Shown here: positions 16,813-45,480 of the stretch, one piece after another
Layout of the letters: each line of letters starts with the position of its first letter
Numbering within the stretch: position 1 is the stretch's first letter
Assembly: GCA_028724545.1 (NCBI GenBank)
Contig: JAQYCU010000015.1
Coordinates: 62,001 to 126,000 of the forward strand
Source of the DNA: a bacterium
GTDB lineage: Bacteria; Bacillota; Clostridia; Lachnospirales; Lachnospiraceae
DNA length: 64,000 nt
Direction: 5' to 3'
Program-made: the position numbers and the translations under genes
The notes under the pieces: model-generated
What the model saw: only the letters and a program-made list of their open reading frames with translations
Database searches by the model: none
Told to the model about the DNA's origin: nothing

Positions 16813-16846
16813 TTGTGCAAAAGGATATGTTTGGAGTGAGGGTGTA

Positions 16847-16994
16847 CCTGTCAGCACAGGCTTCCCTTTTCTGTCAAGGGCACGCTCTCGCTGCGCAAAC
16901 TACGCAGCAGTACATAGTATCCTGAAAAACAGGATACAAGTACTGGCGAGTTTGTAAGCACCCTTCGACAGAAAAGAAAGTCTGTGCTGACAGG
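16847..16994. repeat. Composite element copy 1, module A (long hairpin with branched tip)
   Basis: About 148 nt. Outer arms 16847-16880 and 16961-16994 are complementary apart from a bulge and a few mismatches (CCTGTCAGCACAG with CTGTGCTGACAGG, TTCTGTC with GACAGAA, AGGG with CCCT). The tip holds CTCGC...GCGAG closing two hairpins: TGCG-CAAACTA-CGCA and AGTAC/GTACT stacked on TATCCTG/CAGGATA. The loop CAAACT is also complementary to AGTTTG just after GCGAG. The same architecture recurs at 32190-32336 and 43569-43714 with different arm sequences. Orientation as RNA is unknown. Confidence 0.85.
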
Positions 16995-17199
16995 CAATCC
17001 GGTTTGCAGGTAGCAGACGATATACAGATTCTTGTTTTCAGTTATTACCTCCAGAAATCAGATGCTATGCATCTGGCGTAGCACTTTGTGCTACTCCTTT
17101 TTCTGTCGGTATCGTGCCAGGAAAAGCAAATGCCTGCTTCGCAGTCGCTTCCTTTTCCTTTGAGCACGATAACTTTTGTACAATATCCACTTTGTAAAT
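16995..17199. other. Structured spacer between modules A and B of copy 1
   Basis: Non-coding, 205 nt. It holds three further hairpins: CAGATGC-TAT-GCATCTG, GTAGCAC-TTT-GTGCTAC, and a longer one with ATCGTGC/GCACGAT and AGGAAAAG/CTTTTCCT around a CTGC-TTC-GCAG tip. These are not present in the spacers of the other two copies, so this stretch is copy-specific. Confidence 0.6.
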
Positions 17200-17346
17200 G
17201 GGCTGTGATAAAAATAGAGTTTCCTAACAGCAGCTGTTAAAGAAGCACTGGTGCTTAGTTGACGTATTTCGTCAACTTACGCACCACTGTGCTTCTTTCC
17301 AAGCGAGAGCGTGCTGCTGTAGGAAACTCTATTTTATCACATGCCC
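17200..17346. repeat. Composite element copy 1, module B (34-bp stem with internal hairpin)
   Basis: About 147 nt. The arms 17200-17234 and 17313-17346 pair almost completely (GGGC..TGTGATAAAA, AGAGTTTCCTA with TAGGAAACTCT, CAGCAGC with GCTGCTG). Inside is GAAGCAC/GTGCTTC with GGTGC/GCACC, then GTTGACG-TATTT-CGTCAAC. An unpaired AAGCGAGAGCGT precedes the closing arm and is complementary to module A. The mntP promoter begins 13 bases downstream. Confidence 0.85.
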
Positions 17347-17358
17347 TTTAATAAAAAA

Positions 17359-17387
17359 TTGACAGAAATCCCCAAATCTGCTATACT
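17359..17387 (+). promoter_or_regulatory. Sigma-A-type promoter of the mntP operon
   Basis: TTGACA at 17359-17364 and TATACT at 17382-17387 with a 17-base spacer. Initiation near 17394 places the manganese riboswitch at the very start of the transcript. Confidence 0.75.
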
Positions 17388-17393
17388 AGTCAC

Positions 17394-17541
17394 GCAATGA
17401 GGGAGTAGTTAGCGCGAAAGCGTGGCTAAGTCAACAAACTCGACCAGTGGTCTGGCTTAATCTTAAATAACAAGACTCGTGCATAGTGTAAAACTGTGCC
17501 TGAGTCTATAGAAGCAGGTGCATGTTGTACCTGCTTCTTTT
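17394..17541 (+). promoter_or_regulatory. yybP-ykoY family manganese riboswitch with terminator
   Basis: The leader begins with GAGGGAGTAG followed by a GCGCGAAAGCGT hairpin, then GTCAACAAACTCG and an AGACTCGTGC...GCCTGAGTCT hairpin. The GGGAGTAG/GTCAACA layout closely matches known mntP leaders. It ends in a 9-bp GC-rich hairpin (GAAGCAGGT 17511-17519 with ACCTGCTTC 17529-17537) and a short T-run, which looks like an intrinsic terminator. Known members bind Mn2+ and turn expression on. Downstream mntP makes the assignment strong, although I could not run a covariance model. Confidence 0.85.
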
Positions 17542-29978: not shown

Positions 29979-30140
29979 GTAAAAAAATAAGGAAAATGAA
30001 AATAAAATGGAATGCTATGCGCAAAGGGGAAAAGATATGACAGTTTTATAGGAAATGCGAATTATGGGTAGCATCATTTGGTTTCATTGTAGAGAAACAT
30101 TGACTAAAAAAAGAGGAAGAATTACCATATTAGGCGAAAA

Positions 30141-30226
30141 AAGTATGTTGAAAAAAGTATGTTGCGAAAAAAATGTTGAAAAAGGTATGTAGAAAAAGTA
30201 AGTTGAAAAGAGTATGTTGCGAAAAG
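30141..30226. repeat. 14-bp-period degenerate tandem repeat
   Basis: About six units of GTATGTTG followed by A-rich filler, beginning near 30143, 30157, 30171, 30185, 30198 and 30212. It lies between the divergent asnS and SARP-like genes in a 370-base non-coding, A-rich gap that otherwise holds only the asnS promoter. Confidence 0.7.
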
Positions 30227-31270: not shown

Positions 31271-32125
31271 ATGGAAACATCAAAAGTAAGCGTAGTGATT
31301 GCAGACAACAATTTACAGGATTGTGAGAGCAAGAAAAAGACAATGACAGAAAAAGGCATGCATGTCATCCTGGCAACCGGAAACGGAAATAAGGCTTTAG
31401 AGGCTATCCGAAAGGAAAAACCGGACATTGTCGTAATGGATATGATTTTGCCGGGGATTGACGGAATCGGAATTTTAGAGGAAATCAATAATGAAAATGT
31501 ATTAGAGAAAAAGCCGATTTTTATTATTGAAACGGCACTTCGTATGGAAAATCTGGTGGAAGAAGCGATTCAGGCTGGAGCCGACTATTATATGATGAAA
31601 CCGATATCCAATACAATGCTGATTAAGAGGATGATGCAGTTAGTGCAAAGGGAAGACACAAAGCAGCCGACAGTATTGCATACGGTTACGACAGCAGATA
31701 CCAAAAAGAAAGAGTTGTCGCTGCCTGGCAGAGAAAAAGAAACCGAAGGACATTTCTTTTCCGGGGATTTGGAAATGGATGTTACGAATATTTTGCTGGA
31801 AATCGGAATCCCGGCACATATTAAAGGGTATCAGTATATCCGTGAGGGAATTATTCTGTCGTTTTATGATAGAAATATGCTGCACTATATTACAAAATTT
31901 TTGTATCCGACAATCGCGAAAAAATATAAAACAACTTCAAGCAGTGTCGAACGCACGATTCGTCATGCAATAGAAGTGGCGTGGAACAGGGGGAATATAG
32001 AAACATTGGAGGAAGTCTTTGGAAATACAGTCTGCGCTGGAAAAGGAAAACCGACAAATTCAGAATTTATAGCACTTTTGACAGACAGGCTGCGCTTAGA
32101 ATATAGGACGTGCAGTGTATCTTAA
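31271..32125 (+). CDS. spo0A: Sporulation master regulator Spo0A
   Basis: A 284-residue response regulator. The receiver has Asp57 (VVMDMILPG) and Lys110 (YYMMKP). The C-terminal Spo0A domain (about 170-284) shows YITKFLYPTIAKKY and SSSVERTIRHAIEVAWNRG, the recognition-helix region that reads 0A boxes. Spo0A-phosphate commits Firmicutes to sporulation and related programmes. The ATG at 31271 has GGGAGG five bases upstream. Its promoter region lies 3' of the SARP-like gene and carries three regular direct repeats, pointing to local control. The gene is followed by composite repeat element copy 2. Confidence 0.96.
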   Translation: METSKVSVVIADNNLQDCESKKKTMTEKGMHVILATGNGNKALEAIRKEKPDIVVMDMILPGIDGIGILEEINNENVLEKKPIFIIETALRMENLVEEAIQAGADYYMMKPISNTMLIKRMMQLVQREDTKQPTVLHTVTTADTKKKELSLPGREKETEGHFFSGDLEMDVTNILLEIGIPAHIKGYQYIREGIILSFYDRNMLHYITKFLYPTIAKKYKTTSSSVERTIRHAIEVAWNRGNIETLEEVFGNTVCAGKGKPTNSEFIALLTDRLRLEYRTCSVS

Positions 32126-32132
32126 ATAAGGT

Positions 32133-32220
32133 GGTACGCATTGTACCTGCCATCAAAGGCTCCCGGTTCTATCAATGGTACGCATTGTACCTGCCATCAA
32201 AGGCTCTCTGTTCTATCAAT
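32133..32220. repeat. 44-bp tandem duplication of the module A 5' arm (copy 2)
   Basis: Units 32133-32176 and 32177-32220 both read GGTACGCATTGTACCTG, then CCATCAAAGGCTC and TTCTATCAAT, with only a few differences. The second unit runs into module A; the first is a spare 5' arm without a partner. Confidence 0.85.
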
Positions 32221-32336
32221 GGTACGCTCTCGCTGCACAAACTACGCAGCAGTACATAGTATCCTGAAAAACAGGATACAAGTACTGGCGAGTTTGTAAG
32301 CACCATTTTATAGAAAAGGGAGCCTTTGACGGCAGG
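32190..32336. repeat. Composite element copy 2, module A
   Basis: Same architecture as 16847-16994, 147 nt. The arms are CATCAAAGGCTC with GAGCCTTTGACG, and AATGGT with ACCATT, so the stem is kept by different bases from copy 1. The branched core (CTCGC, CAAACTA loop, AGTAC/TATCCTG, GCGAGTTTG) is nearly identical; one stem base changes TGCG to TGCA. Confidence 0.85.
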
Positions 32337-32361
32337 CAATTCAGGTTGTGGGTGCACGCAG

Positions 32362-32581
32362 AAAACAATCGTTGAAAACCTAGCAGAACAGCCAATATGC
32401 AGATGCCGGACGAAAGTTGGAAACAATCATTGAATACCATTAGAACAGCCAACTTGCAGATACTGGATGAAAGCGAAAAACAATCATTGAAACATCAGCA
32501 GAACAGCCAATATGCAGATGCCAGACGAAAGCTGGAAAATAAATAATTGATGAATACCAGTAGAACAGCCACTATGTAAAT
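32362..32581. repeat. Tandem repeat of about 57 bp in copy 2 spacer
   Basis: Four degenerate units begin with AACAATC-type sequence near 32364, 32422, 32479 and 32537 and share AGAACAGCCAATATGCAGATG and GACGAAAGYTGG. The last unit runs directly into module B. Unit length is unlike CRISPR spacing and there is no constant repeat plus variable spacer. Confidence 0.75.
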
Positions 32582-32730
32582 GGGCTGTGATAAAACAAGA
32601 ACTTCCTAAAAAGCAGCTGTTAAACAGACACTGGTGCTTAGTGGACGTTTTATGTCCACTTATGCACCACTGTGCCTGTTTCCAAGCGAGAGCGTGCTGC
32701 TGTAGGAAGTTCTTGTTTTATCACATGCCC
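32582..32730. repeat. Composite element copy 2, module B
   Basis: 149 nt with the same fold as 17200-17346. The stem reads AGAACTTCCTA with TAGGAAGTTCT and CAAG/CTTG where copy 1 has other pairs; the internal hairpin is GTGGAC/GTCCAC where copy 1 has GTTGAC/GTCAAC. AAGCGAGAGCGTGCTGCTGT is conserved. Confidence 0.85.
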
Positions 32731-32753
32731 CCTCACAAAGCACCTGCAAAAAC

Positions 32754-42808: not shown

Positions 42809-43540
42809 ATGCGATATATAAATGATTTGGATGTAGGGACACGTTTAAAAAATCTTCGTCTGGACAGAGAAGAAAAAATGATTGATATTGCGCTGGAGTT
42901 TGATATTTCGATGGCACAATACAGTCGTTTAGAAAGTGGAAAGGTCCGGATTTCTGTCGATGTATTGGGCAAAGCGTGTCAATACTATAATGTATCTATT
43001 GATTATATTCTTTTTGGAGAACAATATTCTCCAAAAAGTTTTTTCTTTACTAAAGTGCAAAAGTTTGAAGAAAAGGACAGCCGACGGTTTTTGAAAATAT
43101 TGAGTTGCCTTTTGAATCTGCATTGTTTTTCAAAACAGCAAAAACAGGAACCAATGTATAAGATTTTTGCCGGTGGTCTGCTGGAAATGATACCACCGGA
43201 TGCTGATAATACAATGCCATATGTTTTAGAATACGAAAGAAACCTCCAGGGAAAAAGTGAAAATACAATGATAGAAGAATTAGGTCTTACCAGATTCAAG
43301 TGGAATTCCATTATGAACGGAACAAGAGTAAATGATGTGAATATTCCGTTGGCAATCAGTAATCAGTTTGGGTATGATTTAAGTTTTCTGATACAGAATA
43401 AACTGTCAGCAAACTTATTTTTTGATGATTTGTTTTTTGAACTGGAAAAGACACATCAGAGTCATATTGTCACTCTGTTTGATGAAATTATAACAAAAGA
43501 AGGCGAAATCTATCTGTTAGAAACCCAGAAAAGAAAATAG
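42809..43540 (+). CDS. XRE-family transcriptional regulator
   Basis: A 243-residue protein with an N-terminal HTH_3/XRE domain (VGTRLKNLRLDREEKMIDIA, MAQYSRLESGKV) and a longer C-terminal region without recognised motifs. The typical DYILFGE end of the HTH domain is present. I chose ATG 42809 with GAGG seven bases upstream; an ATG at 42794 has a weaker site. The upstream 196 bases are AT-rich and include a direct repeat of GTGACC. Targets are unknown. It lies immediately upstream of composite element copy 3. Confidence 0.85.
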   Translation: MRYINDLDVGTRLKNLRLDREEKMIDIALEFDISMAQYSRLESGKVRISVDVLGKACQYYNVSIDYILFGEQYSPKSFFFTKVQKFEEKDSRRFLKILSCLLNLHCFSKQQKQEPMYKIFAGGLLEMIPPDADNTMPYVLEYERNLQGKSENTMIEELGLTRFKWNSIMNGTRVNDVNIPLAISNQFGYDLSFLIQNKLSANLFFDDLFFELEKTHQSHIVTLFDEIITKEGEIYLLETQKRK

Positions 43541-43568
43541 GAGAAATGTGGGCATAGGAGTTATTGAA

Positions 43569-43714
43569 CCTGACTGCATAGGCTCCTTTTTCTAATCAGG
43601 GGACGCTCGCGCTGCGCAAACTACGCAGCAGTACATAGTATCCTAAAAAACAGGATACAAGTACTGGCGAGTTTGAAGCCCCCTTTATTAGAAAAAGGAG
43701 CCTATGCAGCCAGG
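43569..43714. repeat. Composite element copy 3, first module A
   Basis: 146 nt. The arms read CTGCATAGGCTCC with GGAGCCTATGCAG, TTCTAAT with ATTAGAA and AGGGG with CCCCT. The core differs from copies 1 and 2 by CTCGCG for CTCTCG and by the loss of one pair in TATCCT, but the CAAACTA loop and GCGAGTTTG are unchanged. Confidence 0.85.
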
Positions 43715-43780
43715 CAATTCAGGTAGAGGTGTCCTAGAGAGAATGTTTTCAAAATTTGTCCAGGGTGTGATACATTCCGT

Positions 43781-43905
43781 TCTAATCAGGGGACGCTCGC
43801 GCTGCGCAAACTACGCAGCAGTACATAGTATCCTAAAAAACAGGATACAAGTACTGGCGAGTTTGAAGCCCCCATTGAATAGAAAAAGGAGCCTATGCAG
43901 CCAGG
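43781..43905. repeat. Composite element copy 3, second (5'-truncated) module A
   Basis: A duplicate of the first module with 190-bp spacing. The core and the 3' arm are complete, but the 5' arm starts only at TCTAATCAGGGG, so the outer half of the stem has no partner. The 3' arm has also diverged (CCCATTGAATAGAAA). Confidence 0.85.
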
Positions 43906-44029
43906 CAATTCAGACAGTGGTGTTAGGGGCATAATGCTGTCCTCTTTTTAGCATAAGGGGCATATGTAACCTGTAAGTTTACCCCGTGATTCTCCAAGTA
44001 AGAATATAGTGCAACAGCCAATATTGAAA

Positions 44030-44177
44030 TGGCTGTGATAAAAAAAGAACTTCCTAAAAGCAGCTGTTAAACAGACACTGGTGCTTAGTGGACGTCCTAT
44101 GTCCACTTATGCACCACTGTGTCTGTTTCCAAGCGAAAGCGTGCTGCTGTAGGAAGTTCTTTTTTTATCACATGCCC
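44030..44177. repeat. Composite element copy 3, module B
   Basis: 148 nt, same fold as the other module B copies. CAGACAC pairs fully with GTGTCTG and GTGGAC with GTCCAC. The conserved unpaired strand reads AAGCGAAAGCGTG, GAAA replacing the GAGA of copies 1 and 2. Confidence 0.85.
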
Positions 44178-44253
44178 TTCTTATGCACCACTGTGTCTGT
44201 TTCCAAGCGAAAGCGTGCTGCTGTAGGAAGTTCTTTTTTATCACATGCCCTTC
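44178..44253. repeat. Partial 74-bp duplicate of module B 3' half
   Basis: A direct copy of 44106-44179 that keeps GCACCACTGTGTCTG, AAGCGAAAGCGTGCTGCTGT and the closing arm up to CACATGCCC. It lacks the 5' half. The aminotransferase gene ends 10 bases further on. Confidence 0.85.
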
Positions 44254-44262
44254 TTATATTCC

Positions 44263-45480
44263 TTACTTCTGGTGGTAATCCCCCAAAAATTCTTTCAGAG
44301 CTGTTGTTGCATGCTGTAATTGCTCCAGACAAGGCAGATAAACAATACGAAAATGGTCAGGCTGCTCCCAATGGAATCCTCCACCGTGTGTCAGGAGGAT
44401 TTTCTTTTCTCTAAGAAAATCAAGAACAAATTTCTCATCATCCACAATATGGAAACGCTGGTTGTCCAGTTTTGGGAAAATATAAAAAGCAGCCTTTGGT
44501 TTCACGGCACTTAAGCCCGGAATGTCATTTATGGCATCGCAAATAAATTTTCTTTGTTCGTAGATTCGGCCACCCGGAACTAACAATTTTTTCGTTTCAT
44601 CCAGATGTTCTAACGCCGTCGGAATCAGTGATTGTGCCGGTACATTGGAGCAAAGCCGCATAGAAGAAAGCAGATTAATACCCTCTATGTATCCCTTTGT
44701 ACGGGATTTATCACCACAAAGACACATCCAGCCACAGCGATAACCGGCAATCAGGTGCGATTTTGACAAACCGTTAAAAGATACCGTTAGCAAATCCGGC
44801 GCAAGTGACGCAAGAGCAATGTGTTCTTCGTCATCCATAACAAGACGGTCATAAATTTCATCTGCAAAAAGAATCAGTTCATGTTCTCTTGCAAGATTGA
44901 CAATCTGCTCTAATATTTCTTTTGGATAAAGAGCACCGGTAGGGTTATTTGGATTGATAACGACAATAGCTTTTGTGTTTGGTGTGATTTTTTTTCGCAT
45001 ATCGTCAATATCAGGATACCAGTCGGAAGATTCATCGCACAGATAATGTACGGCAGTTCCACCGGCGAGTGTTACAGAAGCTGTCCAAAGAGGGTAATCA
45101 GGGGCAGGTACCAAGACTTCATCCCCATAATTCAAAAGTCCCTGCATTGACAGAGTAATGAGTTCGCTGACACCATTTCCGGTGTATATATCATTTTCTG
45201 TCACATTAGGCATATGTTTGCTTTTACAATATTCCAAAATGGCCCTTCTGGCAGAGAGAAGTCCTTTTGAGTCAGAGTATCCTTCCGTTGCCGTCAGATT
45301 TTCACTCATACACTGAATCATTACATCAGGTGCTTTAAAATTAAAAGGTGCCGGATTGCCGATATTAAGTTTGATAATATCTTCCCCGGCTGCTATCATC
45401 CGGTTGGCTTCGTCCATAACCGGGCCACGTATATCATAACAGACATTATTTAATTTCGTTGATTTTTCAAATGTTCTCAT
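44263..45480 (-). CDS. Pyridoxal-phosphate aminotransferase (alanine-type)
   Basis: A 405-residue class I/II aminotransferase. NIGNPAPFNF at the N-terminus, VVINPNNPTGALYP and DEIYDRLV in the core, and FNGLSKSHLIAGYRCGW with the PLP lysine are all visible. The pattern matches AlaA-type alanine aminotransferases, which transfer the amino group of alanine or glutamate to pyruvate or 2-oxoglutarate; related substrates are possible. The ATG has AGAGG upstream on the minus strand. It is transcribed alone, towards composite repeat copy 3. Confidence 0.88.
   Translation of the reverse strand: MRTFEKSTKLNNVCYDIRGPVMDEANRMIAAGEDIIKLNIGNPAPFNFKAPDVMIQCMSENLTATEGYSDSKGLLSARRAILEYCKSKHMPNVTENDIYTGNGVSELITLSMQGLLNYGDEVLVPAPDYPLWTASVTLAGGTAVHYLCDESSDWYPDIDDMRKKITPNTKAIVVINPNNPTGALYPKEILEQIVNLAREHELILFADEIYDRLVMDDEEHIALASLAPDLLTVSFNGLSKSHLIAGYRCGWMCLCGDKSRTKGYIEGINLLSSMRLCSNVPAQSLIPTALEHLDETKKLLVPGGRIYEQRKFICDAINDIPGLSAVKPKAAFYIFPKLDNQRFHIVDDEKFVLDFLREKKILLTHGGGFHWEQPDHFRIVYLPCLEQLQHATTALKEFLGDYHQK

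Follow-up and report, generated by a model that had tools for sequence, protein, structure and literature searches.

Three composite repeats in the window

The window, a stretch of 64,000 nucleotides from a Lachnospiraceae genome, contains three copies of a composite repeat at the positions given in the original prediction. A repeat scan and the ORF context show each to consist of a module A, a spacer and a module B, all three copies being intergenic and in one orientation. The copies are small (515-690 bp), lie between ORFs and, like MITEs, contain no transposase gene of their own.

Copy 1 is flanked by the leuS gene and mntP. Its module A, together with the outer stem, spans 16838-17000 on the plus strand (core 16870-16972, plus; cmsearch E 1e-25) and has 48 blast matches in its own genome. 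The spacer (17001-17184, plus) resembles those of other copies at its outer edges and differs from them in the middle, where hairpins lie near 17063-17094 and 17105-17170. Module B follows on the minus strand (17185-17352; core 17222-17324, minus; cmsearch E 8e-17) and likewise has blast matches in the same genome. The folding energy of copy 1 is -237 kcal/mol compared to -139 +/- 6 for shuffled sequences (z -15.6). Directly past the copy is the promoter-like site TTGACA-17-TATACT (17359-17387, plus) of the mntP leader, which itself occupies 17388-17540 upstream of mntP (GAGGGAGTAGTTAGCG...CTAAGTCAACA...AAGACTC). This leader resembles the manganese (yybP-ykoY) riboswitch, but its score, 11 bits, falls short of the threshold of 45; leaders of the same type are kept after leuS in several congeners, where they can precede another exporter gene.

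Copy 2 starts past an ORF that ends at 32125. The 5' arm of its module A (32132-32342, plus; core 32212-32314, plus) includes a 44-nt tandem duplication (32132-32175 / 32176-32219), and its spacer (32343-32568, plus) contains repeats of the AGAACAGCCAATATGCAGATG type; in the spacers of this and other copies, AACAGCCAATTTGTAAA-type units are repeated in varying number. Module B is at 32569-32735 on the minus strand (core 32604-32707, minus; cmsearch E 1e-15). Copy 3, located between an ORF ending at 43540 and a convergent ORF at 44263-45480, is more complex, in that the repeat scan delineates a second module A and a partial duplication of module B. The first module A (43560-43720, plus; core 43591-43692, plus; cmsearch E 9e-23) is followed by a second, duplicated one (43749-43911, plus; core 43781-43883, plus; cmsearch E 2e-22), then by module B (44016-44179, minus; core 44052-44154, minus; cmsearch E 1.5e-16) and by a partial tandem copy of that module's right half (44180-44252, minus; repeat scan family D3). 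Elsewhere in the window, at 30138-30225, the repeat scan detected a short tandem repeat of the AAAAAGTATGTTGAAAA type with a spacing of 14-27 nt (family D4).

The original prediction treated A and B as two different modules, but module B is the core of module A on the minus strand. The covariance model R1, which was built from 21 sequences, nearly all of the A type, matches each module A in the window on the plus strand with E values of 1e-22 to 1e-25 and every module B on the opposite strand with E values of 1e-15 to 1e-17. Because a model built from A modules finds every B in this manner, the two hairpins of a composite form an inverted pair.

Anatomy and covariation of the core

The core, about 103 nt in length, caps a long palindromic stem and combines a mini-hairpin with a long hairpin. 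In 98 distinct sequences, an outer stem is followed by a mini-hairpin of 2 bp in ACGCTCTCGCT and then by two further stems, the first variable and the second conserved (CGC-AG-CRGTAC / GTACYG-GCG, interrupted by an ATA/AA internal loop); the tip is variable. Nearly all core pairs (32 of 33) change on both sides among the 98 distinct cores, and 93.8% of the core cells are paired, compared to 63.6% in shuffled and 29-40% in slid controls. The stem extends past the model by a median of 20 and a maximum of 67 Watson-Crick pairs, whereas the 99th percentile at random places is 7; the sequence of this outer stem is unrelated between copies, yet its pairing is near-perfect. The 2-bp mini-stem covaries as well, from C-G to T-A in 12 cases and from G-C to A-T in 3, and as a stem this short does not lend itself readily to template switching, its covariation suggests that the folded core is under selection.

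Size and distribution of the family

The three copies that had been counted in the window are a small fraction of those in the window genome (hereinafter G000; other G labels denote sampled genomes, and L labels, fetched loci). This genome yields 75 covariance model matches and encompasses about 42 A modules (86 nt or longer) and 39 B modules among the matches listed. A module B is present within 700 nt of 28 of the 42 A modules; 14 A modules and 14 of the listed B modules are unpaired, some of them at contig ends. Convergent A/B pairing was observed also at other loci and in other genera.

A covariance search of the family with counts per genome, proposed along with the original prediction, identified the core in 25 of 28 genomes of the same genus, with up to 130 matches per genome, and in 113 of 299 Lachnospiraceae genomes that were drawn evenly, mostly one per genus. 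In a sample of 391 genomes of the class, the core was detected in 11, all of which are Lachnospiraceae, and none was seen outside this family. Thus, the possibility that the modules are absent from all other genomes, which would have spoken against a repeat family, is contradicted by the presence of the core in many of them. A pattern scan of named records added Coprococcus catus, Blautia, Butyribacter intestini, Eisenbergiella and several other Lachnospiraceae; the sampled congener G014 matches Butyribacter intestini TF01-11 in 15 of 15 stretches compared. The pattern matches at L100 and L106 are in coding DNA and look like chance. Three core patterns gave 0, 0 and 1 matches in viral contigs, and copy 1 had no match in the phage or plasmid collections. 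A Coprococcus catus locus (L105, 7367-7444) contains a fluoride riboswitch that scores above threshold and is unrelated to the element.

Apparently, the copies belong to a large and so far undescribed Lachnospiraceae family of DNA repeats that form hairpins: searches of the open-access literature yielded no description that matches them.

Two carriers of the core in related genomes

In two congeners, the core is part of elements with the features of MITEs. In G014, it occupies the middle of a 213-bp MITE with terminal inverted repeats TAGGTAATTGCGAAACT; ten core-bearing copies are bounded by target duplications of 10-14 bp (two with one mismatch), and some other copies of the element show none. 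In G026, the core is within a 276-bp MITE that has terminal inverted repeats GATGTTGAGGTCAAAAGG; of its 14 copies, 12 are flanked by duplications of 7 bp or more. The ends of the latter match those of a resident IS of about 1.85 kb (L278, 529-2380), itself flanked by a 7-bp duplication, that encodes a 546-aa IS1182-like transposase (NF033551, E 2e-31, below the curated cut-off; Pfam DDE_Tnp_1_6 and DUF772 above their cut-offs). For the G014-type ends (TAGG-N3-TTGCGAAACT), which by eye are apparently shared by G145, the cognate transposase was not found, and a search for IS4-type (DDE_Tnp_1) elements gave no matching element. Given that both the ends and the duplication lengths differ between the carriers in G014 and G026, two types of transposons carry one and the same core.

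Another small hairpin repeat, AGCGAGAAAA...TTTTCGAGCT, occurs in Butyribacter (L226, 2904-2933, and L233) and in L233 is inside a core-bearing element. Larger inverted pairs with a transposase as cargo were considered and rejected: where examined, the ORFs between paired cores are ordinary genes.

Mobility in the window genome

The comparison of empty and filled sites that accompanied the original prediction was performed among congeners at leuS, where the core is present only in the window genome. None of the 22 congeneric leuS loci that reach past the leuS stop codon has a core near leuS, and neither do two truncated loci; in several congeners, the promoter of the leader is located from a few to about 45 nt past the stop, compared to about 545 nt at copy 1. 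Because the congeneric sites lack the core and several have the promoter near the stop, copy 1 represents a filled site. However, target duplications at 12 G000 composites showed no excess over mispaired flanks, and no inverted-repeat ends were seen in the G000 composites. The suggestion of a non-autonomous mobile element is well supported by the duplications and the matching IS in the relatives and by the site that is filled in G000 only, but draws no support from duplications at the window copies. The case for mobility of the G000 composites therefore rests on copy number, absence from the congeneric sites and kinship with the elements of the relatives; these composites appear to be old, unless they arose by a different route.

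The orientation of the copies differs between genomes. In G014, 35 of 44 copies are on the leading strand, and in G000, the right-hand gene is co-directional with the element in 33 of 40 cases. These biases in G014 and G000 could hint at a role related to expression. In G014, the directions of replication and of genes are inseparable because nearly all genes follow the fork. G229, with 19 of 35, has no bias and departs from the other two, so that no general orientation rule emerges, and a general bias of insertion into the leading strand was rejected.

Pairing at the level of DNA or RNA

The original prediction considered a large non-coding RNA, and the corresponding reading, a structured RNA (5'-UTR or stand-alone) copied around the genome whose hairpin acts in transcripts, can be confronted with the mismatches in the stems. 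Where pairing is selected in RNA, G-T is expected to be tolerated and A-C is not; indeed, the acceptor stems of phage T5 tRNAs, taken as the control because the tRNAs from the fetched loci were too few (4), contain 11 G-T and no A-C mismatches. In contrast, G-T is as rare as A-C in the repeats, both in the core (48 vs 57) and in the arms (60 vs 56), so that greater tolerance of G-U than of A-C, as expected of a functional structured RNA, is not apparent and the base pairs lend the RNA reading no support; in the module A arms of G000, the counts are 15 and 24. One inner core pair is T-G in 12 cases and A-C in none. Furthermore, the compensated differences in the G000 arms are of the transversion type more often than of the transition type (133 vs 92), and many positions display all four Watson-Crick pairs, indicating that wobble intermediates were not the main route of change. 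The symmetry of the mismatches together with the excess of transversions argues against selection on the arms as RNA and for arm pairing that is kept at the DNA level.

Nor was a known RNA family recognised: no Rfam family reached its gathering threshold in the window, low-threshold scans produced nothing credible on the element, with weak matches at chance level, and the view that the repeat is no named RNA stands. The compensatory changes at almost all core pairs, the conservation of unpaired bases and the location of most G000 and G014 copies close to the start of a co-directional right-hand gene would all suit an RNA. Nevertheless, set against the near-equal frequencies of G-T and A-C, the predominance of transversions among the compensated arm changes, the lack of an Rfam family and the unbiased orientation in G229, these observations leave an RNA an unlikely explanation, although the inner core may still act as one.

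Relationship to known repeats and probable origin

By anatomy, the family is closest to MITEs and REP-type dimers. As in bacterial MITEs, including those derived from IS1182, the elements of the relatives are short and non-coding, with terminal inverted repeats, target duplications and, in G026, ends in common with a resident IS. A MITE is normally bound to one IS family, whereas here one covarying core is common to elements with different ends and duplication lengths, and the window copies have no visible inverted-repeat ends or duplications. Integron attC sites are DNA hairpins in which the stem sequence varies, the pairing is kept and the outer boxes are conserved. The hairpin described here similarly varies in its stem while the pairing stays, but is conserved at the tip rather than in outer boxes, and its copies are scattered singly.

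Quite unlikely, too, is the possibility that the core moves independently and enters existing palindromes, such as MITEs and terminators, at their tips. Such a unit would fit the presence of a single core among unrelated arms in different carriers, as well as the core-less 79-bp elements of G014, which correspond to the 213-bp element without a 134-bp segment that is bounded by the direct repeat TGCACA. Deletion between the 6-bp repeats, however, gives the same pattern, other filled copies (L195 and L199) have the inverted rather than the direct form at this place, and the related inner arms in G014 and G026 suggest one ancestral palindrome that was taken up by different ends.

REP, BIME and REPIN elements resemble the family in being palindromes that recur between genes in large numbers per genome and are frequently arranged as inverted dimers whose spacers vary (PMC3116915, PMC3733652), but REPs are defined as palindromes of 20-40 bp with a GTAG or CGTC tag (PMC3733652), whereas the family hairpin, of about 150 nt, has a 103-nt core with a three-way junction and a different conserved sequence. 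A Y1 (RAYT-type) transposase that moves the inverted pairs in single-stranded form would accommodate the dimers with variable spacers, a hairpin maintained at the DNA level and the partial strand bias in G014 and G000. Such a mechanism is nevertheless highly improbable because co-occurrence argues against the Y1 link, with no Y1 genes found in the core-rich G014 (46 cores), G008 (30), G026 (25) and G003 (16) and zero cores in G017 and G016, which have such genes, and because target-site duplications are unexpected for Y1 transposition.

Taken together, these observations are probably best explained by a non-autonomous mobile DNA hairpin that is carried by unrelated transposons, with the window copies being old members of the family. 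The unit would be the conserved core of about 103 nt at the tip of the long palindromic stem, which in the window genome appears mostly as two inverted copies (A...B) separated by a variable spacer, and it would be moved by a transposase that acts in trans on the ends of the carrier. The arms might be kept complementary by DNA-level events, most simply by arm-to-arm template switching during replication. Template switching between inverted repeats yields multi-base compensatory changes (PMC8794818), and we infer that it causes the complementarity of the arms here; the changes, like those in the template-switch hairpins of that study, are multi-base and compensatory without wobble intermediates, but the hairpins there were described for RNA genes, whereas here they belong to a dispersed repeat whose long arms display, at many positions, all four pair types. 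A purely neutral view of the arms leaves the conservation of the core unaccounted for; the core could be kept because some factor recognises its single strand in folded form, with DNA a likelier target than RNA. More tentatively, the core might be a self-interested single-stranded DNA hairpin module that belongs to no single transposon family, has spread through the Lachnospiraceae by capture in many unrelated MITEs and is recognised by a factor of the host or the element.

A carried DNA hairpin of this kind would be unusual in that a single structured core is found in elements moved by different transposases. The family cautions that covariation by itself is no proof of an RNA, and its long arms, which co-evolve nearly free of wobble pairs, are a natural, replicated test case for template switching between inverted repeats. 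For the Lachnospiraceae, a major family of gut bacteria, it adds an abundant class of repeats that reaches 130 matches per genome.
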